From: Bacillota bacterium
Lineage (GTDB): Bacteria > Bacillota > Clostridia > Peptostreptococcales > Anaerovoracaceae
Assembly (NCBI GenBank): GCA_029006195.1
Contig: JAQXGH010000026.1
Coordinates: 1 to 32,623 of the forward strand
Direction of reading: 5' to 3'
DNA: 32,623 bases
The position numbers were made by a program, and so were the translations under genes. Under the pieces are notes generated by a model. That model had not been told where the DNA came from. It made no database searches and saw only the letters and a program-made list of their open reading frames with translations. Below, piece after piece: positions 21,509 through 30,957 of this stretch; positions within the stretch are counted from its first letter, which is position 1, and each line of letters opens with the position of its first letter.

Positions 21509-22606
21509 ATGAAAAAAAGTGGATTATTTAAAACTGTGTTGATTTTAGCCATGACAGGCCTTTTGGCTTTTGTTTTGACTTCATGTGTATCAGATGCTTC
21601 CCCTGAAGCGGTCCAGCCTGAAGAACAAATCGATTATGAAGTTGCTCTTATTACAGATGACAGCCTTATTATGGATGGCGGTCACAGCGAGATGGAATGG
21701 ACTGCTATAAGCGTTTATTGCGCTGAAAACGGCTTATCACATAAGTACTATAAGGCAACAGACAATACTAAAAGAGCTTATGATAAAGCTATGGATATGG
21801 CTGTCCAGAAAGGCGCTAAGATAGTTATTGCTGATAATGACAAAGTAAGCGATGCTGTATACGATGCTGAAGAAAAGTACAAGGATATTAAGTTTATCAT
21901 CCTGAATTCTTCTCCGGTAGATGAAGAGAATGGCGATATCAGAATTTCCAGCAATACTGTTGCCGTAGTCTTTGCGTCAGAAGAGGCTGGATATTTGGCT
22001 GGATATGCTGCTGTTAAAGACGGGTATGAAAATTTAGGATTTATAGGACAGACTCCTGATAAGGAATATAAGTCATACGGATATGGCTTTGTTATGGGTG
22101 CTGATAAAGCGGCTGTGGAGATGGATGCGGATGTTACTGTGAAGTTCTATAGCGTTAAGCCAGAGGACAAGAAGAGCATAGCTTATGAGAAGGCTTCCGA
22201 GTGGTTTGCTGATGGAACTCAGGTCATTATGGCATCAGGTAATAACATTGACACAGATGTGATCAGAGCTGCTGAGGCGGAAGGTGGCAAGGTTATCTGC
22301 TGTCAGGCTGATAAGAGTATGCTTTCTGATACTATTCTCACTACAGCTGAGGTTAAGGTAGATAAGGCGTTAAATGATCTTTTAGGCCTTTACTCAAAGG
22401 ACAAGTTCCCATGTGGAGAAATAGTAAGTTATGACGCCGCTAATGATGGCGTGGGACTGGCTCTTAAGGTCAATGGATTCAAAAATCTGACACAGAAAGA
22501 CTACAAAGATATTTACCAGAAGCTTGCAAGTGGTAAGATAAAGGTGGACATCGAGGAATTGGAAAAAGCTCATGACATTAAGTTAAAAAGAGCGCAGTTA
22601 GATTAA
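21509..22606 (+). CDS. BMP-family substrate-binding lipoprotein
   Basis: A surface-anchored periplasmic-binding-fold protein. It has a signal peptide with a lipobox ending LTSC (Cys26). The BMP (PnrA-like) domain includes the family-typical segment ASEEAGYLAGYAAV, followed by GFIG. Relatives bind purine nucleosides as the receptor of an ABC importer. No permease or ATPase gene of that importer is nearby. The first ~60 mature residues and the last ~40 diverge from typical members, so the ligand may differ. It is the last gene of the EamA-Nudix-amidase operon and is followed by a bidirectional terminator. Confidence 0.9.
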   Translation: MKKSGLFKTVLILAMTGLLAFVLTSCVSDASPEAVQPEEQIDYEVALITDDSLIMDGGHSEMEWTAISVYCAENGLSHKYYKATDNTKRAYDKAMDMAVQKGAKIVIADNDKVSDAVYDAEEKYKDIKFIILNSSPVDEENGDIRISSNTVAVVFASEEAGYLAGYAAVKDGYENLGFIGQTPDKEYKSYGYGFVMGADKAAVEMDADVTVKFYSVKPEDKKSIAYEKASEWFADGTQVIMASGNNIDTDVIRAAEAEGGKVICCQADKSMLSDTILTTAEVKVDKALNDLLGLYSKDKFPCGEIVSYDAANDGVGLALKVNGFKNLTQKDYKDIYQKLASGKIKVDIEELEKAHDIKLKRAQLD

Positions 22607-22652: not shown

Positions 22653-24068
22653 TTATTTGATAAAGATATTTGGTCTTTCGTCAATTGGGATGTATTCATG
22701 GTGATCCTGAACATTTACATATGCAGGTCTCATCAGCTTAGCTCCGCCAACAAGTTCTTCGAGGCGGTGTGCGCACCAGCCTGAAAGTCTAGCTGTAGCG
22801 AAAAGCGGTGTTGCGATATCCATAGGGATATCCAGTGCTGAATATACGAAACCTGAATAGAGGTCGACATTAGCAGGCATAAGAACTTCCTTGCCGTGAA
22901 CTTCTGCAAATAACTCTGGAACACGTTTTTCAATGTAATCGCAGAGAAGGAAGTCTTCAATCTTATTGTTGCTGTTCGCCAGCTTCTTAGCCATTCCCTT
23001 GAGGATTTTAGCTCTAGGATCGCTCATTGTATAAATGGCATGGCCTACACCGTAAACAAGGCCTGTTCTATCATGAGCTTCTTTACGGAGAATCTTAACA
23101 AGGTAGTCATCCAGCTTAGCGTGGTTGCCAAGATCAGGAACGTGTGCCTTGATGTCATCCATCATTTTGATTACAGCGATATTAGCACCGCCGTGCTTAG
23201 GGCCCTTAAGTGAACCTACAGCAGCAGCGATAGCTGAGTATGTATCAGTACCTGTTGATGAAATAAGGTGAGTTGTAAATGATGAGTTGTTACCACCACC
23301 GTGTTCAGCATGAAGAATCATGCAAACGTCAAGAAGCTTAGCTTCCAGATCAGTATATTCACCTGTTGGTCTAATCATTCTCAGGATATTTTCTGATGTG
23401 CTCAGTTCTGGAATAGGGTTGTGCAGGTGAAGGCTTTTGTTATCATAAAATGTACTCTTTGCCTGATATGCGTATGAAATCAGAGCAGGGAAGTAGCCGA
23501 TGAGGCTGATTGACTGACGAAGTACATTTGAAATTGAAATGTCATCTGGATTATTGTCGTAGCAATAAAGAGCCAGAACGCTTCTTGCCAGCTTATTCAT
23601 AATGTTGTTTGAAGGTGCAGTCAGAATCATGTCACGTGCAAATCCGTGAGGAAGTGAACGGTGCTTTCCGATTTCCTGATTGAATACTTCAAGTTCTCTT
23701 GTTGTAGGCAACGTACCCATGAGGAGCAAGAATGTTGCTTCTTCAAATCCGAAACGGTTCTCTGCGACAGCATGGTTAACGATGTCTTCGATGCTATAGC
23801 CTCTGTAATAAAGTTTGCCTTCGCATGGGATTTTATTTCCCTGTTCATCTGTATCATAGCCCTTAACTTCACCGATGTTTGTGAGTCCAACGACAACACC
23901 AGTACCGTTTGAATTTCTAAGGCCACGCTTTACATCGTACTTGGAGTAAAGTGTGTTATCGATAGTATTTGTTTCTGCAATAAACTTTGCGCCTGCTTCA
24001 AAAGGGTTATTTACTAAATGTTTATTGCTTTTCGTTGGTTTTGATAATCCTTTCAATTTTTCGAGCAT
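22653..24068 (-). CDS. gltA: Citrate synthase
   Basis: Condenses oxaloacetate and acetyl-CoA to citrate. The catalytic residues are recognisable: His256 in HAEHGGGN, His343 in GVGHAIY and Asp402 in NVDLYSG, plus the arginine-containing ARLSGWCAHRLEE near the C-terminus. At 471 residues it is longer than the ~380-430 of most bacterial enzymes because of an N-terminal extension of about 50 residues, as in other clostridial citrate/2-methylcitrate synthases. A perfect AAGGAGG precedes the ATG. It lies only 29 bases after the PilT-type gene with no terminator between, so it is either the last gene of the pilus operon or has a promoter inside pilT. No aconitase or isocitrate dehydrogenase gene is next to it. 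Confidence 0.97.
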   Translation of the reverse strand: MLEKLKGLSKPTKSNKHLVNNPFEAGAKFIAETNTIDNTLYSKYDVKRGLRNSNGTGVVVGLTNIGEVKGYDTDEQGNKIPCEGKLYYRGYSIEDIVNHAVAENRFGFEEATFLLLMGTLPTTRELEVFNQEIGKHRSLPHGFARDMILTAPSNNIMNKLARSVLALYCYDNNPDDISISNVLRQSISLIGYFPALISYAYQAKSTFYDNKSLHLHNPIPELSTSENILRMIRPTGEYTDLEAKLLDVCMILHAEHGGGNNSSFTTHLISSTGTDTYSAIAAAVGSLKGPKHGGANIAVIKMMDDIKAHVPDLGNHAKLDDYLVKILRKEAHDRTGLVYGVGHAIYTMSDPRAKILKGMAKKLANSNNKIEDFLLCDYIEKRVPELFAEVHGKEVLMPANVDLYSGFVYSALDIPMDIATPLFATARLSGWCAHRLEELVGGAKLMRPAYVNVQDHHEYIPIDERPNIFIK

Positions 24069-24097: not shown

Positions 24098-25156
24098 TCA
24101 TCCTAATTTTTTGCCCAGCATTTCTGGGTTTGTAGAATATATCAACGCTGTATTACGCGTAATACGTCCTTCTTTATACAATTTCAAAAGGCTTTGATCC
24201 ATTGAAATCATGTCTGGTGTTTGTGAAGAGTAGATAAGACCCTCTATTTGAGGAACTTTATCACTTCTAATCATATTTCTGATGGCAGGTGTAACTGTCA
24301 TCACTTCAAAAGCAGGAACGATCTCGCCATCTACAGTAGGAACCAGCTGCTGTGAGATAACTGAGTTCAGTGCCATTGATAATTGAACAGCGACTTGTCT
24401 CTGCTGATTAGCAGGGAATACGTCGATGATTCGGTCTATTGTATTGGCTGCGCCTATTGTGTGCAGCGTTGAGAAGAGAAGGTGACCTGTTTCAGCTGCA
24501 GTCATTGCTACGCTGATTGTCTCATAGTCACGCATTTCTCCAAGTAAAATAACGTCAGGGCTCTGACGAAGTGCAGCCCTTAAAGCTGTAACATAATCAT
24601 CAGTATCCACATTAACTTCTCTTTGGCTAACGATACTGCTCTGGTGTTTATGAAGATGTTCAAGCGGATCCTCAAGCGTAATAATATGCTTTTTCTGAGT
24701 TTTATTTATTCTATCTATTATGCAGGCAAGTGTAGTTGACTTGCCGCTGCCTGCAGGTCCAGTAACGAGAACCATACCGTTATTTGACTCGGCCAGACTC
24801 ATTATGGATTCCGGAATACCTAGATCATCTGGGTGAGGCAGGTTGAAATTGATGATTCTGATTACAGCAGAAAGAGTGCCTCTCTGCTTATAAGCGCTTA
24901 CTCTGAATCTGGAAAGTCCAGGGATGGCAAATGAGAAGTCATCATCACCGCAAGTCTTAAGCTGCTCCATATCACGGCTGCCTGCCAGTGTATATATTTC
25001 ATGAAGAAACTGGCTGGTATCTTCAGGAAGAAGGCGTGTATCGCCTACATTTTCTATTTTATTATTCTTTCTTATTGAAATCGGCAGTCCGGCTACGATG
25101 AATACATCTGATGCGTGTTCTTCAACGGATTTCTGCAATATTTCTCTGATGTTCAT
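24098..25156 (-). CDS. pilT: PilT-type type IV pilus ATPase
   Basis: A hexameric secretion ATPase, in classic systems the retraction motor of type IV pili. The N-terminal PAS-like domain covers about 1-105. The motor domain has Walker A GPAGSGKS (133-140), an Asp box (ITLEDPLEH, 159-167), Walker B VILLGEMRD (202-210) and a His box (STLHTIGA, 229-236). The segment AIRNMIR (291-297) matches the PilT-specific AIRNLIRE signature, and at 352 residues it lacks the long N-terminal domain and zinc-binding cysteines of PilB/GspE. It is the only motor ATPase in the cluster. GGAGG precedes the ATG, 22 bases after the 117-residue gene. Confidence 0.95.
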   Translation of the reverse strand: MNIREILQKSVEEHASDVFIVAGLPISIRKNNKIENVGDTRLLPEDTSQFLHEIYTLAGSRDMEQLKTCGDDDFSFAIPGLSRFRVSAYKQRGTLSAVIRIINFNLPHPDDLGIPESIMSLAESNNGMVLVTGPAGSGKSTTLACIIDRINKTQKKHIITLEDPLEHLHKHQSSIVSQREVNVDTDDYVTALRAALRQSPDVILLGEMRDYETISVAMTAAETGHLLFSTLHTIGAANTIDRIIDVFPANQQRQVAVQLSMALNSVISQQLVPTVDGEIVPAFEVMTVTPAIRNMIRSDKVPQIEGLIYSSQTPDMISMDQSLLKLYKEGRITRNTALIYSTNPEMLGKKLG

Positions 25157-25178
25157 AAGAATTTGCCTCCAGCAGTTT

Positions 25179-25532
25179 CTACTGTAATAAATTCAATTTC
25201 TGGTTGTAATTTCTATCGGCAGTATTAACTACCATCCATTTAATTATTTTGTAACCACAGCCCTCTTTAGGAGACTTTGCAATCTCCACATCAAGGATCT
25301 GATCATCATTTATCTTAATGAGCCATGAATTTTCATCAGTCTCTTGGTGTCTAAATTTATTAATTTCTTGTTCAGCCTGGTTGCAAGCTTCGTAATAAAG
25401 AGTTTTATGGTCAGCTGCTTTCTCTGCCATATTCATATCGCTTTTAGCTGTGGATAGCGAAAGCGATGCGAAACTGATAAGGACTAAAGTGACCAGTATT
25501 ACGAGAAGGGAAGAAATGCCTAAACTTTTCAT
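25179..25532 (-). CDS. Small single-pass pilus-locus protein (PilX-like candidate)
   Basis: 117 residues: a short N-terminus, one hydrophobic helix (about 8-29), a charged amphipathic helix continuing it, then a soluble domain ending NLLQ. This is the layout of a minor pilin or of PilX/GspK-type proteins, but there is no canonical G|xxxxE prepilin cleavage site. Its ATG overlaps the TAA of the preceding gene by one base (TAATG), with GGGGAGG in that gene's end, so the two are translationally coupled. I do not recognise a family; the assignment rests on topology and position. Confidence 0.75.
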   Translation of the reverse strand: MKSLGISSLLVILVTLVLISFASLSLSTAKSDMNMAEKAADHKTLYYEACNQAEQEINKFRHQETDENSWLIKINDDQILDVEIAKSPKEGCGYKIIKWMVVNTADRNYNQKLNLLQ

Positions 25533-25951
25533 TATTTGACCTCCCCTCTGACATTGTGGGTTATATCAAGGGAATAAATTTCTCCTTTAGGCGCAGAATA
25601 TGCAAAAGCTGCAATCTCCGCCTCTATCATCCCTTTATCCGCATCTTTTACCGAAGTTTTAACTACATACATAGCCTTGCTTTTGTCGCATTCACTAAAC
25701 CTTTCATCAAAGTAAATGTCGCCTGCCAGGTCATATGCAGCCTTAGAAGTGTCGCATCCTGATATTGTTTCTGCTACACTCGAGCACTCTCTTACTGCGA
25801 AGGAGAGTGCATTGGCATCTCTTGAGATGTCATGTGCTTTAACAAACATCTGAACACAAACAGCGCTTGCCAGTGCGAAAAACAGTATTGCTATTATTAA
25901 TTCCAGCATGAGAAGACTGGAGTTTCTGGGCGTTTTAGCTTTGTTCATCAC
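25532..25951 (-). CDS. Prepilin-like protein with atypical cleavage site
   Basis: 139 residues. A basic leader (MMNKAKTPRNSS) precedes a hydrophobic helix, LLMLELIIAILFFALASAV. A glutamate sits at +5 if cleavage falls after the second Ser, as in type IV prepilins and pseudopilins, but the -1 residue is Ser rather than Gly and the +1 is Leu rather than Phe. The long first helix and small beta-rich C-terminus resemble PilV/GspI-type minor pilins. It contains two cysteines in the ectodomain (SGCDTSK and SECDKSK) that may form a disulfide. It lies 20 bases after the DUF4860 gene. Confidence 0.82.
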   Translation of the reverse strand: MMNKAKTPRNSSLLMLELIIAILFFALASAVCVQMFVKAHDISRDANALSFAVRECSSVAETISGCDTSKAAYDLAGDIYFDERFSECDKSKAMYVVKTSVKDADKGMIEAEIAAFAYSAPKGEIYSLDITHNVRGEVK

Positions 25952-25971
25952 AGAATTCTCCGTTTATAATG

Positions 25972-26448
25972 TTAATCGCATCTGTAAAGTACATTGGATT
26001 TTTCGGTAGTACCGTCATTTCCTGTACACTGGATGTGAATGATGCCGTCAGATTTGCTGCTGCTAAAATCTTTAAGATCTACAATATCTATGCCGCTGGC
26101 AGCTGTAGCACCCGAACCAGATTTGGCATAGAGTTCTTTCAGTGCGCCATCGGCGATATATATATAAGTAACATAACCTTTTTCACTATTATCCTTAATG
26201 ATTAAGGCCTGACATCCATCGAAGGAACCTACTGATATGCAGCCTTTGGAATCATTTGCGTGAATTTTCTCAGTTACATACAAAACAGCGGTGCTGCATG
26301 AATTGTTTCTGACTGAAGTCTTCGCTTTATCCTCATAAGAATCAGCTGCAAACAGCATAATCATTAAAGCTAGGATAGCGAAGGTAAAAAACAGCACAAT
26401 TGGAAAAATGAAATCGATTGTGTGTGTCTTTCTGTTAATAATCTTCAA
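25972..26448 (-). CDS. DUF4860-type membrane-anchored pilus-locus protein
   Basis: 158 residues: a basic N-terminus with RKTHTIDFIFPIVLFF leading into a single helix (about 12-34), then an extracytoplasmic domain. The RxHTIDxIFxxxLF opening and the KIHANDSKG segment fit DUF4860, which I know mainly from clostridial pilus/competence-like loci. Its role is uncharacterised and probably that of a minor pilin. The start is TTG at 26448, because GGAG lies nine bases upstream inside the last codons of the preceding gene, four bases away; the next Met is well into the helix. Two ectodomain cysteine pairs are present. Confidence 0.8.
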   Translation of the reverse strand: MKIINRKTHTIDFIFPIVLFFTFAILALMIMLFAADSYEDKAKTSVRNNSCSTAVLYVTEKIHANDSKGCISVGSFDGCQALIIKDNSEKGYVTYIYIADGALKELYAKSGSGATAASGIDIVDLKDFSSSKSDGIIHIQCTGNDGTTEKSNVLYRCD

Positions 26449-26452
26449 GGGG

Positions 26453-26749
26453 TTACTCCTTAATTTCGATTATTGTAACGCCAGGCATCATGTTTGAGCC
26501 TGATGCACGGTAATCCACGTAGAATTTATCTTCATCGTAGACGAGGCCGTAGTTTTCTTTTATGTAATCCAGGCTTTCGGGATATGAACCTTCCAGCGCA
26601 TAGCAGTTAGCTATGCTTCGCATAATGGAATTTTCGAGATTTTCCTTTTGTCTTTTGCTCTGGCCACTGGAAACAGATGAAATGCACCAGCAGAATATTG
26701 CTATAATCAGAACAAAAAGTAGTATACTGGATATCTTGATCTTAGCCAT
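26453..26749 (-). CDS. Small pseudopilin-like protein
   Basis: 98 residues: a short basic N-terminus, a hydrophobic helix (about 7-27), and an ectodomain containing NCYALEGSYPESLDYIKENYGL-type sequence. That YALEGSYP..LxxIKExYG pattern resembles the segment after the first helix in ComGC/GspG pseudopilins. There is no glutamate at the usual +5 position and no prepilin peptidase site. It may be anchored without cleavage. The ribosome binding site is GGAGGGG. It lies 22 bases after the PilC/GspF gene and is coupled to the next gene. Confidence 0.75.
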   Translation of the reverse strand: MAKIKISSILLFVLIIAIFCWCISSVSSGQSKRQKENLENSIMRSIANCYALEGSYPESLDYIKENYGLVYDEDKFYVDYRASGSNMMPGVTIIEIKE

Positions 26750-26771
26750 AAGGACCCCTCCTGATAAAGGT

Positions 26772-27827
26772 CTAAAGCGTAGACATAATACCCATAAGAG
26801 GGAGCATTACAGAAAGCAGTACTATGCCAACAATGACTGAAAGTATTATTACAAGCGATGGTTCAAGAAGCCCGATGAATCTGTTGATTCTGTCGTCAAT
26901 TTCTTCCTGATATAGAACTGCTATGTCTTCCATGGCTTTATCCTGTGACCCTGTCAGGCTTCCGATGCTTGCCATACGTGCATGCTGACCTGAGAAGATG
27001 TTTACTTCTTTAAGAGCGGAGGTGAATTCTGTGCCTCCATCCATAAGGCGTGTGCATTCACTTAATTTCTCAGCGAACGTACTGTCCTCATTAAGTTCTT
27101 TGGCTAGCTCAATGCTCCTGTCAAGAGCCTGGCCGCTTGAAAGGGATATTGCCATTGAGCTGGCAAATCTACATGCTGCTGTACATTCAAAGATGCGAGC
27201 AATAGATTTGAATTTATAACCTATTCTTTTGATTTGCTGCCTGCCTGATGCTGTTACTATTGAAAGGGTAACAAGTGCGGCAATTATGAGCAGGATCACT
27301 ACAATGAAGCAGGCAGACCTGCTTATTATTTGCCCTGCGTTCATCAAAAATGCAGAAAACCCTGTAAGTTCTGATCCAAGCTGAATCAAAACCTGGTTGA
27401 ATACAGGCATTACCTTTACCATCAAAACGATGATTACAATTGCAATCATACCTGTCATTATGAGCGGATATGTTACAGCATTTTTTATGCCCTTGGCAAT
27501 GGATTCTTCTCTTTCGTAATGAAGTGCCAGATGATGGAGCACATCGTCGAGACGTCCTGTTTCAGAACCGATTTCTATCATTTTGACAGCGTAATGCGGA
27601 AACAGACCATCCTTTGAAAGTGCGGAAGAGAAGTCGCCGGTTTCGATATAGTTATCTATAATTTGCTGGAGGACAGTTTGCTCTTCATTTGATTCAGCAG
27701 ATTCCACCATAAGAGATAGACCTTCTATAAGTGAGATGCCAGACTTAAGGATAATCTCAAGCTGCGAGCAAAATGAGGCTATTTCTACATTTGTAAATTG
27801 CTTTCCGGCTTGTCTGGAGTTTGCCAT
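26772..27827 (-). CDS. PilC/GspF-type inner-membrane platform protein
   Basis: Platform protein on which the motor ATPase acts in type IV pili and type II secretion. Two T2SSF domains are visible (about residues 15-140 and 210-340), each with the paired-helix cytoplasmic part and membrane segments (about 115-137, 165-190, 320-345). Typical motifs are SGISLIEGL, ETGRLDDVL, and in the second half SIGSLTGSQDKAMEDIA followed by the EPSLVIILSVIVGIVLLSVMLP region. At 351 residues it is slightly shorter than the usual ~400, having a short N-terminus. GGAGG precedes the ATG. Confidence 0.93.
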   Translation of the reverse strand: MANSRQAGKQFTNVEIASFCSQLEIILKSGISLIEGLSLMVESAESNEEQTVLQQIIDNYIETGDFSSALSKDGLFPHYAVKMIEIGSETGRLDDVLHHLALHYEREESIAKGIKNAVTYPLIMTGMIAIVIIVLMVKVMPVFNQVLIQLGSELTGFSAFLMNAGQIISRSACFIVVILLIIAALVTLSIVTASGRQQIKRIGYKFKSIARIFECTAACRFASSMAISLSSGQALDRSIELAKELNEDSTFAEKLSECTRLMDGGTEFTSALKEVNIFSGQHARMASIGSLTGSQDKAMEDIAVLYQEEIDDRINRFIGLLEPSLVIILSVIVGIVLLSVMLPLMGIMSTL

Positions 27828-27845
27828 GTAAGTCCTCCGTTTTTG

Positions 27846-28763
27846 TCAATAGTTATATTTAACTGTGTAGTTTGAACCGTCTCCAACGTAGTTTTTAACA
27901 CTCTTTTGTCCATTGCTGGCAGCTAGAGTCGGATCCATCAGAGACCAGTGCTTGCCATCAAATTCTATTACATTGTCTACCCATCCGGTTTCCTCTGTGT
28001 AAACGCTTATCCATGCGTGATATACAGAACCTGAATATCCCACAACCAGCTTTGTTGGAACTCCTTGTGAGCGGAGTAATGCTGTCATCAGTGATGCGTA
28101 GTCAAAACATATTCCTGATTTAGATTTTAAGGTAGAGTCGATATCTGGAATATAGTCTGCAGTTATATTCTTGGCTTTCTCATAATCATATTGGATGTTT
28201 GTGGTTACATATTCGTATACATTCTCCACGAACTTGAGGTCTGTGGTAGAACTTTCTGAAAGCTCCTTGCCTAAATCCATTGCTTCCATGCCTTTCTCGT
28301 ACCACGCATACTGGTTAGGGTAGAGGAAAGGTGTGAAATCATCATCAAGTTTGACATCGATAGTATCTGTTAAGCTCATAACATACATGTCATCTCTAAT
28401 GTTCTCAAAAACCTGTATTTCATACGAACCATCCCCTGTAGTGAGGGGATATGTTTCGTATTCTTCACTGTGCTGAGTGTATGAATATGTTTCGCCATCA
28501 GTACCTATGATCTGGACCTTGATTTTGTTTGAAAGTCCGCTCTTCACCATCAGGTAACCCTTAGATGTGTTTGAAACATCGATATTAATGCCGTTGCCCG
28601 AAATGGTCTTATCGCCTGATGCTTCAGGTTTTAAGAATTTATCTGTGCTTCCTCGGCTGTTTTGTTCATCTGTTGCAGCTTCATTTGTACCGCATGATAC
28701 AAATAAAAAGACTGCACATACTATGATGAGAAAAACATTTAAGCAACGAATTGTTCTTTTCAT
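27846..28763 (-). CDS. Transglutaminase-like lipoprotein
   Basis: A 305-residue surface lipoprotein: the signal peptide ends in FVSC (Cys24), followed by a Ser/Asp/Asn-rich linker, a beta-rich domain (about 60-140) and a transglutaminase-like core (about 170-300). The catalytic triad is Cys219 (KSGICFDYASL), His249 (YHAWISV) and Asp277 (LMDPTL), complete as in active transglutaminase/protease family members. It may crosslink, cleave or deamidate cell-surface proteins, possibly the pilins encoded next to it. It lies between the candidate anti-sigma and the PilC gene with 27- and 18-base gaps and a good GGAGG. Confidence 0.92.
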   Translation of the reverse strand: MKRTIRCLNVFLIIVCAVFLFVSCGTNEAATDEQNSRGSTDKFLKPEASGDKTISGNGINIDVSNTSKGYLMVKSGLSNKIKVQIIGTDGETYSYTQHSEEYETYPLTTGDGSYEIQVFENIRDDMYVMSLTDTIDVKLDDDFTPFLYPNQYAWYEKGMEAMDLGKELSESSTTDLKFVENVYEYVTTNIQYDYEKAKNITADYIPDIDSTLKSKSGICFDYASLMTALLRSQGVPTKLVVGYSGSVYHAWISVYTEETGWVDNVIEFDGKHWSLMDPTLAASNGQKSVKNYVGDGSNYTVKYNY

Positions 28764-28790
28764 ATATCTGCAGCCTCCTGAATTTAATAA

Positions 28791-29513
28791 TTATTGAGCT
28801 GTTAAAACAAGCTGTAGTGTATTGCCTGCTTTGTCAGGTAAAAAGATGTTTAAACTTTCATTGTTGTATTCAAATGCTATTTTTCCCTTTTTTGGATTAT
28901 CATCAAGCACCTCAGGCTTAGTTTTGTCTCCTGTAATACTTTCAGCATATATGCCGCTATAGTCTATTCCGGATTTTTCGTCGCTGAGATTTATGATGAG
29001 CTTGCCATCTAATTTCTCGTAGCTGTCCAGAACAGGAGTATCGTAATCTGCGTCAACTGTTGTTACCTGTGTTGAGATGCTGTCATACTGTTTATTTAGG
29101 AGAGAAACCTTAATTAACAGTTCTCCATTTGCATCTGGTTCAATTGAATAAATTCCCTCGTCTGTCTGGTATACAGGCACTTTGTTGCCATTTAACTCTG
29201 CTGATACATTTGAAATTGGTATGAGTGAGTTTACTGATAAGTTATATGAAATGCCATTGCTGTCATTCTGTACCGGATTAAGCGAGAGTACAGGTGCAAC
29301 AAAGAGGGCAGGGACAAGAAGGAAAATGACAATGATAACTGCGATTGCCACCTTCTGAATTGTAAATTTATCCCTTCTGTAATTGCTGTATGATTCCAGA
29401 TCTTCTAGCGGTACTGTGTTTGGCTCAACATCACATGCTTCGAAGATGTTTTGAAGCATATGGCCAGCTGAATCTGGTGATAGTAATTCTTCTTTCTTTC
29501 TCTTAAATATCAT
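28791..29513 (-). CDS. Single-pass membrane protein, candidate anti-sigma factor
   Basis: 240 residues. An N-terminal cytoplasmic part (1-53) includes a helix (AGHMLQNIFEACDV), one transmembrane helix spans about 54-76, and the rest is an extracytoplasmic beta-rich domain with repeated strands resembling a bacterial Ig-like fold (for example DTPVLDSYEKLDGKLIINLSD, then a DKAGN motif common in such folds). It starts 15 bases after the sigma-factor gene. Position and topology fit a transmembrane anti-sigma factor, but the cytoplasmic part has no zinc-binding HxxxCxxC motif and no family I recognise, so this is inference. Confidence 0.8.
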   Translation of the reverse strand: MIFKRKKEELLSPDSAGHMLQNIFEACDVEPNTVPLEDLESYSNYRRDKFTIQKVAIAVIIVIFLLVPALFVAPVLSLNPVQNDSNGISYNLSVNSLIPISNVSAELNGNKVPVYQTDEGIYSIEPDANGELLIKVSLLNKQYDSISTQVTTVDADYDTPVLDSYEKLDGKLIINLSDEKSGIDYSGIYAESITGDKTKPEVLDDNPKKGKIAFEYNNESLNIFLPDKAGNTLQLVLTAQ

Positions 29514-29528
29514 ATCGTTTGGCTCCGT

Positions 29529-30098
29529 TTAACTTGGCTGTGTCGTTTTCAAAATGTCCTTGAGGTGTTCCTGACCGTTTCTTAAGTATCGTTTGACCGT
29601 ACTCTTGCTGACATCCATTATGTCAGCTACCTCGTCAATTTTCATCTCATGGTAAAAACGCAATGTGATTGCTTGAGCTTCGGAAAACGGAAGCTTCATT
29701 ATTTGATTGAGTATGTACTCACCTTCATCGGTTTTAACGACCTGGCTTTCAGGACTGACACCCGAAGATGAGTTGTCTGCTATTACATCTGCTTCTATAG
29801 GGTTCATCTCATCGTGATATTTCTTTTGTTTCTGATAAATCTTAAAGCAGACTCTAAAGCATATCTGATTCAGCCATGCTACAAACAGCTGTGGATCGTT
29901 GATATTCTGTATTCCTTTGAGCGCTAAAATATAAGTCTCCTGCAGGGCATCCTGCGCCAGAAACTCATCTTTTAAATAACTGTACGCAAAACGATACTGC
30001 TTCCTGTAGGTTGCAGCGTATAGCTCTGCGAACGCGTTACTGTCGCCTTGTTGTGCACTTAATACAAGTGATTTTAAGTACTGATAATCTAATGCCAT
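29529..30098 (-). CDS. ECF-type RNA polymerase sigma factor
   Basis: 189 residues with the two-domain structure of extracytoplasmic-function sigma factors. Region 2 covers about 14-80 (FAELYAATYRKQYRFAYSYL, then AQDALQETYILALKGI). Region 4 covers about 130-185 (LPFSEAQAITLRFYHEMKIDEVADIMDVSKSTVKRYL, a helix-turn-helix). Region 3 is absent. It probably directs transcription of its own operon (membrane protein, transglutaminase, pilus genes). The ATG has no Shine-Dalgarno: the 15 bases before it read CGACATTATAGTATT. The start is nonetheless supported, because region 2 begins right after it. See the promoter entry. Confidence 0.93.
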   Translation of the reverse strand: MALDYQYLKSLVLSAQQGDSNAFAELYAATYRKQYRFAYSYLKDEFLAQDALQETYILALKGIQNINDPQLFVAWLNQICFRVCFKIYQKQKKYHDEMNPIEADVIADNSSSGVSPESQVVKTDEGEYILNQIMKLPFSEAQAITLRFYHEMKIDEVADIMDVSKSTVKRYLRNGQEHLKDILKTTQPS

Positions 30099-30101
30099 AA
30101 T

Positions 30102-30130
30102 ACTATAATGTCGATTTAATAAACGTAAAC
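30102..30130 (-). promoter_or_regulatory. Promoter candidate at the sigma-factor start, possibly leaderless
   Basis: On the - strand GTTTAC (30130-30125), a 17-base spacer, and TATAGT (30107-30102). The -10 element ends only three bases before the ATG, so the transcript would begin at or within the start codon. No Shine-Dalgarno is present. An upstream promoter through the GGDEF gene is the alternative. Confidence 0.4.
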
Positions 30131-30140
30131 ACTATTTTTT

Positions 30141-30818
30141 CTAGATTCTTCTGTCGCTGAGTGCGATCAGTTCTGTTATAGAGCTTGCCTTGTCATACTT
30201 CTGAGCAGAAATGCCATATTTGTATTCGACAGGCATCTTGTCTGTATCAGAATTATGAGTTCTAACTTTCTGAGCAATTCTAAGAAGGAACTGTTCAAGC
30301 TTATCCTCGGCACCTTCTTCAAAGATAGCGAGATACTTGTTTCCGCCGTTACGAGCAACAAAGCAAAGGTTTACAGATGCCATTCTAAGAATGTTTGCGA
30401 AATCTCTAATCAGGCCATTACCTTCAACGTGACCGTAAAGCTGATTGATTTCTCTTATATTAGAAAGCTCAAACATAATGCAGTACATTTTTTCTGGAAC
30501 TTCTCTATCAACATATTTGTCGATAAGAGCATCTGAACTGAATCTGTTGGCGATTCCTGCTACAGGGTCAGAATGAATAACATAGTCCAGTTCCTTGTAG
30601 TCATGTTTGAACTTAGTAAACAGATGGAAGTCGAGGAAAATGAACATGAATGAAATGGCTAAAGCGAGCCAAAGCATTGCACACATTAACTTAACATTAC
30701 TGTCAACTGCGATAGTATGGAAGAGTTCCTTGTTAAGGAACACTATAAGTGCACATATAACAGTAAATACAATGAAAACTATTAGCTGAATTGTCTTGAG
30801 TAGGTCAAATTTTTTCAT
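30141..30818 (-). CDS. Membrane protein with degenerate GGDEF domain
   Basis: 225 residues: two transmembrane helices (about 8-29 and 44-63), then a GGDEF-fold domain beginning DPVAGIANR (84-92). The family pattern is recognisable (NQLYGH..GNGLI), but the catalytic signature is GGNKY (158-162) instead of GGDEF, the first metal-ligand aspartate is replaced (FELSN for DxDxFK), and there is no RxxD inhibitory site. The C-terminus stops at about the usual last helix. It should not make c-di-GMP and may act as a receptor or scaffold. It lies 42 bases upstream of the sigma-factor gene in the same direction, hence possibly a regulator of the pilus. GAGGA precedes the ATG. Confidence 0.85.
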   Translation of the reverse strand: MKKFDLLKTIQLIVFIVFTVICALIVFLNKELFHTIAVDSNVKLMCAMLWLALAISFMFIFLDFHLFTKFKHDYKELDYVIHSDPVAGIANRFSSDALIDKYVDREVPEKMYCIMFELSNIREINQLYGHVEGNGLIRDFANILRMASVNLCFVARNGGNKYLAIFEEGAEDKLEQFLLRIAQKVRTHNSDTDKMPVEYKYGISAQKYDKASSITELIALSDRRI

Positions 30819-30933
30819 TTTTTATTGTCCTCACTAATAATAACTATAAGTATACAAAGTAATAATACCATAATGTCGGACAAAATGAAACTGCTTTGGG
30901 AATGTATACGATTTGACTTAAAGCAAAGAAAAA

Positions 30934-30957
30934 CGCCTGCCACTTCAGTGACAGGTG
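30934..30957 (-). terminator. Intrinsic terminator of the GtrA-YhbY-HMA run
   Basis: The main stem is CCTGCCAC (30936-30943) with GTGACAGG (30948-30955), TTCA loop, one G-U on the - strand, extended outward with one mismatch. On the - strand it is followed by five U residues just after the HMA stop codon. Confidence 0.8.

Follow-up and report, generated by a model that had tools for sequence, protein, structure and literature searches.

Which surface machine is encoded by a compact pilus-like gene set whose sole ATPase is of the PilT type, and what would a transglutaminase-like (TG) lipoprotein and a sigma factor, encoded in the same run of genes, have to do with it? The question is raised by a 32,623-nucleotide stretch of DNA (contig JAQXGH010000026.1, assembly GCA_029006195.1; this whole stretch is referred to as the window) from a Bacillota bacterium of the family Anaerovoracaceae. 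A preliminary description of the window had proposed that nine minus-strand genes form an operon in which a sigma/anti-sigma pair switches on a surface filament that is modified by the TG enzyme. All nine open reading frames (ORFs) lie exactly where they had been placed, spaced by 4 to 27 bases or overlapping by 1 base in the ORF list, and the Pfam and NCBIfam scores bear out the families named, i.e., PilT-family ATPase, T2SSF/PilC, Transglut_core, DUF4860, and an extracytoplasmic function (ECF)-type sigma factor. Judging from the sequences of the window and its relatives, the locus is a genuine and conserved variant of the type IV filament superfamily that has apparently not been described before, to which a switch has been added in the lineage of the window. 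The preliminary description was right about the association of these genes and probably mistaken about the target of the sigma factor. It passed over the most unusual feature of the locus, which is a PilT-type ATPase without a PilB partner.

Core gene set and its ATPase

The locus combines a PilC/GspF platform protein and a VirB11/PilT-type ATPase with a prepilin peptidase encoded in the same genome, all three being features of the type IV filament superfamily. It resembles a type IVa pilus in its platform, its PilT-type ATPase, the class III pilins of its relatives, and the A24 peptidase of its own genome (one gene, at C2:28526; 46.3 bits versus a cut-off of 26.5, without an NCBIfam match). 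It differs in that PilB, PilM, PilN, and PilO are missing from the locus, the only ATPase comes from the PilT branch, and a TG gene is part of the core; for PilM, PilN, and PilO the absence refers to the locus genes, no genome-wide search having been made.

The window ATPase scores 415 bits against the PilT model TIGR01420 (cut-off, 319), compared with 119 bits against PilB, 144 against ComGA (cut-off, 300), 129.7 against GspE (cut-off, 630), 49 against the TadA-family model (cut-off, 373), and 157 against PF00437. Hence, it is not of the ComGA, GspE, or TadA type, all three models remaining below their cut-offs. The Walker A motif and an AIRNMIR motif are present, and an AIRN[LM]IR-type motif was found by pattern matching in 31 of 50 ATPase rows of the system. 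In a carefully built tree of 57 rows, the 24 system ATPases form a single clade (100/100) that falls with PilT, and not with PilB, at the split between the two (100/100). A larger, quickly built tree agrees, with 42 system rows together (Shimodaira-Hasegawa-like approximate likelihood ratio test [SH-aLRT], 100) and the Tad-like rows separate.

A search with the T2SSE model in 22 genomes, including that of the window, returned a PilB-like match (427 bits or more) in 8 and none in 14. In two genomes estimated as 100% complete, G205 (one contig) and G300 (120 contigs), the locus ATPase is the only T2SSE match over the cut-off. The genome of the window (85% complete) has no PilB-like match; its T2SSE matches are the locus ATPase and one TadA-like protein. 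Another contig of this genome (C44, 6000 to 14000; L154) bears a Tad-like pilus locus of its own, whose genes include TadA-like and TadB-like ones. The clade on the PilT side, together with G205 and G300, in which no second T2SSE ATPase exceeds the cut-off, makes the PilT-descended enzyme the probable sole motor, one that would drive assembly alone. The loci of two genomes, G279 and G086, lack pilT; their partner may be a PilT-like gene found on the same contig at a distance of about 40 kb.

The seven-gene core TG-pilC-ps98-DUF4860-ps139-ps117-pilT, in which the four genes between pilC and pilT encode small pilin-like proteins, recurs across the Clostridia, and since the same order recurs in many genomes the arrangement is not due to chance. 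We scored 40 loci and then 30 more, some of them chosen for other questions, with hidden Markov models (HMMs) grown from the window proteins. Among the 62 pilus-type loci, including that of the window, PilC was found in 61, all six filament genes in 47, TG in 45, and TG directly before pilC in 38. Within the genus, 29 of 49 genomes have a PilC match and TG adjoins PilC in 28 of these; the sole exception, G034, has an ordinary PilB-plus-PilT set instead (L153). In one genome (G014), TG and the last two thirds of PilC occupy a single open frame of 546 aa (L165, 6170 to 7807), which may reflect a deletion, a fusion, or an assembly error. At the level of the class, DUF4860 was detected in 31 of 291 genomes at an E value of ≤0.001 (29 over the cut-off), and TG belongs to the DUF4860 locus in 17 of the 31, spanning 11 families. 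The claim that TG is a companion of the filament therefore holds up, with TG adjoining pilC or lying within the DUF4860 locus at these frequencies.

The position of TG varies with the lineage. It mostly lies upstream of pilC, follows pilT in families f5 and f10 and the pilins in f50, is divergent in L096, and stands beside pilB in L162. The last locus (G216), in which the TG gene adjoins an ordinary PilB-plus-PilT-plus-PilC set, suggests that TG enzymes are linked to type IV pili more widely. Of the loci of the best 80 named relatives of the TG, a sample biased to the clade of the window, 78 extend to pilC, and in each of these the TG gene immediately precedes it; the other two end short of pilC. 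These relatives take in Faecalicatena contorta, Dorea sp. D27, Christensenella hongkongensis, Pseudobutyrivibrio, Mogibacterium sp., and Candidatus Crickella caballi; the window TG falls into a set of ten together with Mogibacterium sp. and Candidatus Crickella caballi (SH-aLRT, 96), so that the window probably stems from a gut member of the Anaerovoracaceae. The f50 loci L105 to L109 and L159 have the order pilT-pilC-pilins and no PilB beside their PilT, which sits elsewhere in the PilT tree than that of the system, the remainder of those genomes not having been checked for PilB.

How does this compare with the single-motor systems on record? The part of the survey by Denise et al. (2019, PMC6668835) available to us describes PilB as the assembly ATPase, with an essential function in all families, and PilT as frequently lost, so that a PilT-only locus fits none of the classes treated there. 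According to the portion of PMC11300603 that we draw on, CpaF is a single-motor case that serves both extension and retraction of Tad pili. The window locus is like the Tad system in that a single ATPase would be expected to account for both extension and retraction, and unlike it in that its ATPase, its platform (one PilC, not TadB/TadC), and its pilins are not of the Tad type. The mannose-sensitive hemagglutinin (MSHA) pilus of Vibrio cholerae offers another parallel, since PilT is needed for, and thus contributes to, its extension, with the difference that it is a type IVa pilus with a dedicated extension ATPase (both points as given in part of PMC9815625). The locus shares with the ComG (ComM) competence pseudopilus an operon for one ATPase, one platform, and several small pilins in succession; it is set apart by the ATPase, with its 144 bits to ComGA versus 415 to PilT, and by the TG and sigma genes. 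No mention of DUF4860 was found in the open-access literature searched, and none of a TG in connection with type IV pili, pilT, or pilC in Clostridia; in both cases absence from that literature is weak evidence.

Transglutaminase-like lipoprotein and pilin-like proteins

The TG protein consists of a signal peptide with a Cys, a family-specific N-terminal domain, and the TG core. Its C219-H249-D277 triad, described before as intact, is indeed so in the window and in all 46 aligned homologues from pilus loci (window included), and a lipobox pattern fits 30 of the 46, including the window protein. Matches to solved structures are with 3isr, a putative cysteine protease (E value, 6.7e-9; profile positions 165 to 268), and, more weakly, with 6g49, by name a protein-glutamine gamma-glutamyltransferase (E value, 1.3e-6). 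The likeness to 3isr extends over the core of the TG profile, and the N-terminal domain is not covered.

In the TG tree, pilus-adjacent enzymes fall into a clade of 39 rows (89/76), 38 of which group at 99/96, a second set from f5, f10, and f50 (90/91), and the lone row L162. The label of pilus adjacency requires 3 changes on this tree versus a mean of 25.5 after shuffling; the starred branches force 1, and a single origin of the adjacency would still be compatible with these data. Relatives of the TG without a neighboring pilus occur in other genomes. In the overlap of 291 class genomes, counted at ≥149 bits for TG and at an E value of ≤0.001 for DUF4860, 29 genomes have both, 2 have DUF4860 only, 16 have TG only, and 244 have neither. 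We also considered TG as a fixed partner acting in trans, as 12 of the 14 DUF4860 genomes without an adjacent TG carry one elsewhere. These distant enzymes were not counted as pilus parts because the tree groups them with the TGs of genomes that lack DUF4860. Likewise, the idea that a TG is hidden in small ORFs beside the f17 loci, which have no adjacent TG, proved wrong for the ORFs scanned.

The four small proteins of the locus are most likely pilins or pseudopilins, given that the N_methyl prepilin signal occurs in relatives and that characteristic residues are conserved. None of the four window proteins has a Pfam match to the class III signal. Among 10 small proteins scanned, the N_methyl signal exceeded the cut-off in ps139 of L101, L109, and L106 and in the DUF4860 protein of L082. 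In ps139 the equivalent of the pilin Glu5 is kept in 130 of 130 rows; ps117 keeps a Gly in 128 of its 129 rows, and ps98 the Cys of its motif CYAxEGxYP (CYALEGSYP in the window) in 127 of 131. No class III or otherwise cleavable signal was seen in ps98. The N terminus of ps117 is presumably of the PilX/GspK kind, as read by eye.

The proposal that the TG crosslinks pilins by isopeptide bonds finds no support here, since none of the four pilin families has a Gln or Lys conserved at 90% or more (129 to 132 rows each, including a few duplicates, the contigs L290/L076, L291/L071, L293/L073, and L298/L074 looking identical). The best-conserved candidates, K54 (105/132) and Q57 (94/132), are both in the DUF4860 protein.

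Sigma module, giant surface proteins, and transcription unit

Upstream of the TG gene lies a module of three genes for a GGDEF-like protein, the sigma factor, and a membrane protein. The window sigma factor scores 31.6 bits for region 2 and 42.1 bits for region 4, both over the cut-off, and aligns at full length to the HMM of its family. By hydropathy, the membrane protein has a cytoplasmic part of about 50 aa, a hydrophobic stretch within about residues 48 to 82, and an extracytoplasmic domain; Pfam finds no known anti-sigma domain in its 240 residues. It is a putative anti-sigma factor, the partnership being suggested by adjacency and fusions. The notion that the two proteins are partners is borne out insofar as their genes are adjacent in many genomes and fused in seven ORFs. 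Six of the fused ORFs lie beside a pilus (L360, 1061 to 2134; L302, 6863 to 7867; L310, 3459 to 4493; L341, 1743 to 2816; L314, 3435 to 4502; and L311, 1134 to 2033), in loci that mostly come from metagenome assemblies. The seventh (L138, 6981 to 8216) has no pilus nearby and retains both sigma regions in the HMM alignment.

The GGDEF-like protein has two N-terminal hydrophobic stretches, and in the window its signature reads GGNKY. It belongs to a small family with two transmembrane stretches (the window and 43 further rows, beside the sigma gene) that mostly carries GGNKF or GGNRF. Of the 44 rows, a few of them duplicate contigs, 26 have GGNKF and the rest other degenerate forms; GGDEF or GGEEF occurs in none (0/44), and we therefore rejected the possibility that the protein is an active cyclase. 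A GGNEF form stands directly before TG, without sigma, in L091 and L164 (f37). In another branch of the genus (L145 to L151, L088, L089, and L165), one to three GGDEF genes lie downstream of pilT, adjacent to it or a few kilobases off.

RsgI is a one-pass membrane partner of a sigma factor and carries an outside domain. SigI/RsgI-type pairs of a sigma factor and a membrane anti-sigma factor control surface proteins in clostridia, as stated in the part of PMC6056542 consulted. The window pair is similar in combining a sigma factor with a one-pass membrane partner that has an outside domain, and in its apparent link to surface proteins. It is different in that the sigma factor is of the ECF type, the partner belongs to no Pfam family, a degenerate GGDEF protein is the third member, and the motif is another one.

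Does this module serve the filament, as had been proposed? Most TG-filament loci do not carry it. The sigma gene is beside the TG-filament in 8 of 28 genus loci, and in a set of 95 loci both sigma and its partner are found in 28 and neither in 56 (the other 11 were left out of the count because the upstream sequence was too short or because one of the two genes only was present). Within the genus, the membrane protein occurs in 15 of 49 genomes, next to the pilus in 8 and away from it in 7; of these seven genomes with a standalone module, three (79 to 81% complete) have no PilC match. In the close relatives G036 (96% complete) and G002 (89% complete), no match to the membrane protein was found genome-wide although both keep TG and the filament, and the sigma pair is therefore not needed for the filament. 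On the other hand, the link between sigma and pilus extends beyond the genus to several families, including Lachnospiraceae, and the sigma label is clustered on the TG tree (9 changes versus 23.6 to 23.8 in shuffles).

The module is often accompanied by giant repeat proteins, whose repeats are of the InlB type and some of which also have MBG or Big_2 domains. A giant-type N terminus was recognized in 12 of the 28 loci with module and pilus (10 of them divergent), some of the others being cut by a contig end. Next to standalone modules, 6 of 7 have one by the N terminus, and the seventh (G033) also has a giant. The window locus has none, and the same genome encodes an unlinked giant of 3481 aa on contig C53 (972 to 11417; L289, L373). 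This protein has a hydrophobic stretch at its C terminus and lacks an LPxTG motif. Its gene is followed by two small one-pass proteins and, by eye, a signal peptidase-like ORF.

In the pilus-linked lineages of two families, the giants are preceded by the motif TGRRCC-N18-CWCWTTATWTA, whose -35-like part, as TGAACC, resembles ECF -35 boxes. The motif was noticed in six genus loci, among them L071 with a spacer of 19, and several of the 12 motif loci listed are overlapping copies of one place. It was found again, at the same spacing, upstream of the giant on C53 with no mismatch, ending 146 bases before the start, of those of L292 and L294 with 1 mismatch and of L297 and L299 with 2, and of the L322 giant (Dorea sp. 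D27) with 3. Shuffling each giant-upstream region 60 times (single letters, one strand, giant starts set by eye) always left at least 4 mismatches. Across 25 genomes, 10 perfect matches occur; they fall in 7 genomes, in all of which sigma adjoins the pilus. Nine of them precede secreted-looking ORFs (signal peptide by eye) and 1 is at a contig end. At ≤2 mismatches, 26 matches compare with 3 for a reversed control. Weak matches were also found in two genomes without the module (four in G023 and one in G036). In the window there is no site within 3 mismatches, and in the four stretches upstream of the GGDEF, sigma, TG, and pilC genes the best match is no better than in shuffles. As the motif lies before giants and has no site in the window, the most likely targets of the sigma factor are giant surface proteins and not the filament. 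We therefore dropped control of the pilus through the operon promoter as the leading idea, the giant-type motif being the only one sought in the window. Together with the many filament loci that lack sigma, the relatives G036 and G002, and the modules that lie away from a pilus in 7 of 15 genus genomes, this speaks against a sigma pair that turns on the filament.

The features of the locus are collected in Table 1. The preliminary description of one operon stands, and its start has to be moved one gene further upstream, to the GGDEF-like gene, which lies 42 bases before the sigma gene and keeps this place in relatives. The transcription unit probably begins at 30818 and ends at either 24098 or 22653, as judged from a hairpin at 30955-30936 and from the next intergenic terminator match on the minus strand at 22646-22622, past the citrate synthase-like gene; five further minus-strand matches in the operon are all inside genes. 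The citrate synthase-like gene is a possible passenger at the transcript end. Together with a gene for a BMP-type lipoprotein (by eye; window 21509-22606), such a gene is near the pilus in L071 and L143 as well. The element CGACATTATGGTATTAT is perhaps part of a housekeeping promoter, as it is extended -10-like. Near-identical 17-mers, CGACATTATRGTATTAT, are found at 30862-30878, before the GGDEF gene, and at 30097-30113, where the second copy overlaps the ATG of the sigma gene. The window PilC covers positions 54 to 399 of the GspF model, leaving about 50 N-terminal residues missing.

Table 1. Features of the filament locus and its surroundings, in window coordinates and in the order of reading on the minus strand
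Feature	Position	Strand	Family or score	Remark
Terminator-like hairpin	30936..30955	-		Upstream of operon
CGACATTATGGTATTAT	30862..30878	-		Upstream of GGDEF gene; read from sequence
Degenerate GGDEF membrane protein	30141..30818	-	PF00990, 51.9 bits	Probable first operon gene
ECF-type sigma factor	29529..30098	-	PF04542, PF08281, PF04545 over cut-off	Regions 2 and 4
Single-pass membrane partner of sigma (putative anti-sigma)	28791..29513	-	No Pfam family	240 aa
Transglutaminase-like (TG) lipoprotein	27846..28763	-	PF01841, 74.5 bits	
PilC/GspF platform protein	26772..27827	-	PF00482, 135 bits in two stretches; TIGR02120	
Pilin-like protein 1 (ps98)	26453..26749	-	No significant Pfam family	
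Pilin-like protein 2 (DUF4860)	25972..26448	-	PF16152, 89.4 bits	
Pilin-like protein 3 (ps139)	25532..25951	-		Glu5 equivalent; SSLLMLE in window
Pilin-like protein 4 (ps117)	25179..25532	-	No Pfam family	
PilT-type ATPase	24098..25156	-	TIGR01420, 415 bits	Sole ATPase of locus
Citrate synthase	22653..24068	-		Read by eye; 29 bases after pilT, no terminator match between

A proposed filament coupled to a switch, and competing readings

The best explanation of the whole, to which we attach about even confidence, would be a minimal type IV filament machine coupled to a surface-sensing switch. The PilT-descended ATPase would both assemble and disassemble a short filament that crosses the cell wall, by analogy with CpaF for Tad pili. 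The TG lipoprotein, at the outer face of the membrane, might cut or join an amide bond in an envelope partner, its target being wall peptide or a surface protein and not the pilins. The membrane protein would hold the sigma factor at the membrane until an outside cue arrives, upon which the freed sigma factor would transcribe the genes for giant repeat surface proteins from the TGRRCC-N18-CWCWTT promoter. The filament operon would probably be read from a housekeeping promoter, so that the filament and the switch would be produced jointly, the latter then turning on the adhesin-like giants.

Several observations weigh against this account. The nearest neighbors of the system ATPases in the tree are three ordinary PilTs (89/81) with no PilB in view with them, PilB being in view beside ordinary PilT rows in about ten loci only. 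A PilB does occur elsewhere in the 8 genomes mentioned above, and given that the window genome is 85% complete, its absence there could be a gap. TG is missing from the DUF4860 locus in 14 of the 31 class genomes (8 in f17, 3 in f50, 2 in f34, which are PilB-bearing loci, and G177 in f66), and no lipoprotein Cys could be made out by eye in the TGs of f5, f10, f50, and L162. In the lineage of the window, ps139 and the DUF4860 protein have lost the Gly that precedes the prepilin cut site (Gly-1), so that a true filament is not certain. In the six pilus-linked fusions, the HMM alignment has the partner part begin before region 4 would; with no room for region 4, these are not ordinary sigma factors and may be membrane-bound pseudo-sigma proteins. 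As for the motif, the six sites with one mismatch include three before secreted-type ORFs, one before a DNA-binding-like ORF, and two with no ORF in view. It is absent before the giants of standalone modules (6/6 tested) and at L296, and G016 has sigma and no motif match, its contig ending 285 bases before the GGDEF gene. The link between sigma and motif is thus correlative and in part a matter of kinship, which the trees do not remove.

How do other readings fare? The machine could be a pseudopilus for secretion or DNA uptake, akin to a type II secretion or ComG system, with the TG or the giants as its cargo, and its content of one ATPase, one platform, and several small pilins would suit this, as would the lack of a cleavable signal in ps98, the loss of Gly-1 in others of the window lineage, the GspK-like look of ps117, and the giant-type proteins beside 12 of the 28 modules with a pilus. 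We nevertheless consider it unlikely, if not strikingly so, since the ATPase is far under the ComGA, GspE, and PilB cut-offs, and since the TG carries a lipoprotein signal itself and the giants have Sec-type N termini (by eye), so that neither obviously needs the machine; moreover, no giant was recognized in the other 16 loci, some of them cut by a contig end. Distinctly unlikely is the model of the preliminary description itself, with the sigma/anti-sigma pair as the switch of the filament operon and the TG as the crosslinker of pilins. It draws on closely spaced, co-directional genes in the window and its relatives and on the intact triad, and an autoregulatory promoter of another type would still be compatible with the sequence. 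Set against this are the absence of a giant-type motif site from the window and from the four upstream stretches, the majority of filament loci without sigma, and the pilins without a Gln or Lys conserved at 90%.

Alternatively, PilT might only retract, with extension provided in trans by TadA or by the PilB of a second pilus. The completeness of G205 and G300, where no other T2SSE ATPase exceeds the cut-off, makes this very unlikely, even if the Tad-like locus on C44, the genomes with a PilB elsewhere, and the AIRN[LM]IR-type motif in 31 of the 50 system rows are what it would predict. Hardly credible is the idea that the sigma module, TG, and filament are neighbors by chance or hitchhiking with no functional link. 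The module does occur alone as well, and TG relatives with the same domain make-up are found in 16 of the 291 class genomes without DUF4860, but the gene order is kept across families and the TG tree shows strong clustering of the TG label and likewise of the sigma label.

In summary, for the filament coupled to a switch, we see the case as evenly poised that it represents a separate class of type IV filament in which PilB has been lost, a PilT descendant is the sole two-way motor, and a TG is part of the core; such a class would be common and so far unnoticed in gut Clostridia, and in part of its range the module of degenerate cyclase, sigma factor, and membrane partner would wire it to giant surface proteins as a contact-sensing adhesin switch. 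With this locus, a surface machine of common gut Clostridia (Lachnospiraceae, Christensenella, Anaerovoracaceae, and others) can be tied to a gene set that is well defined and recurs. The analysis also connects pili with a transglutaminase-like enzyme, and it yields a specific promoter motif from which targets of the sigma factor can be predicted. If the PilT-only lineage is what it seems, a retraction motor can become an assembly motor, and the direction of the motor would become testable by comparing sister ATPases on one tree.

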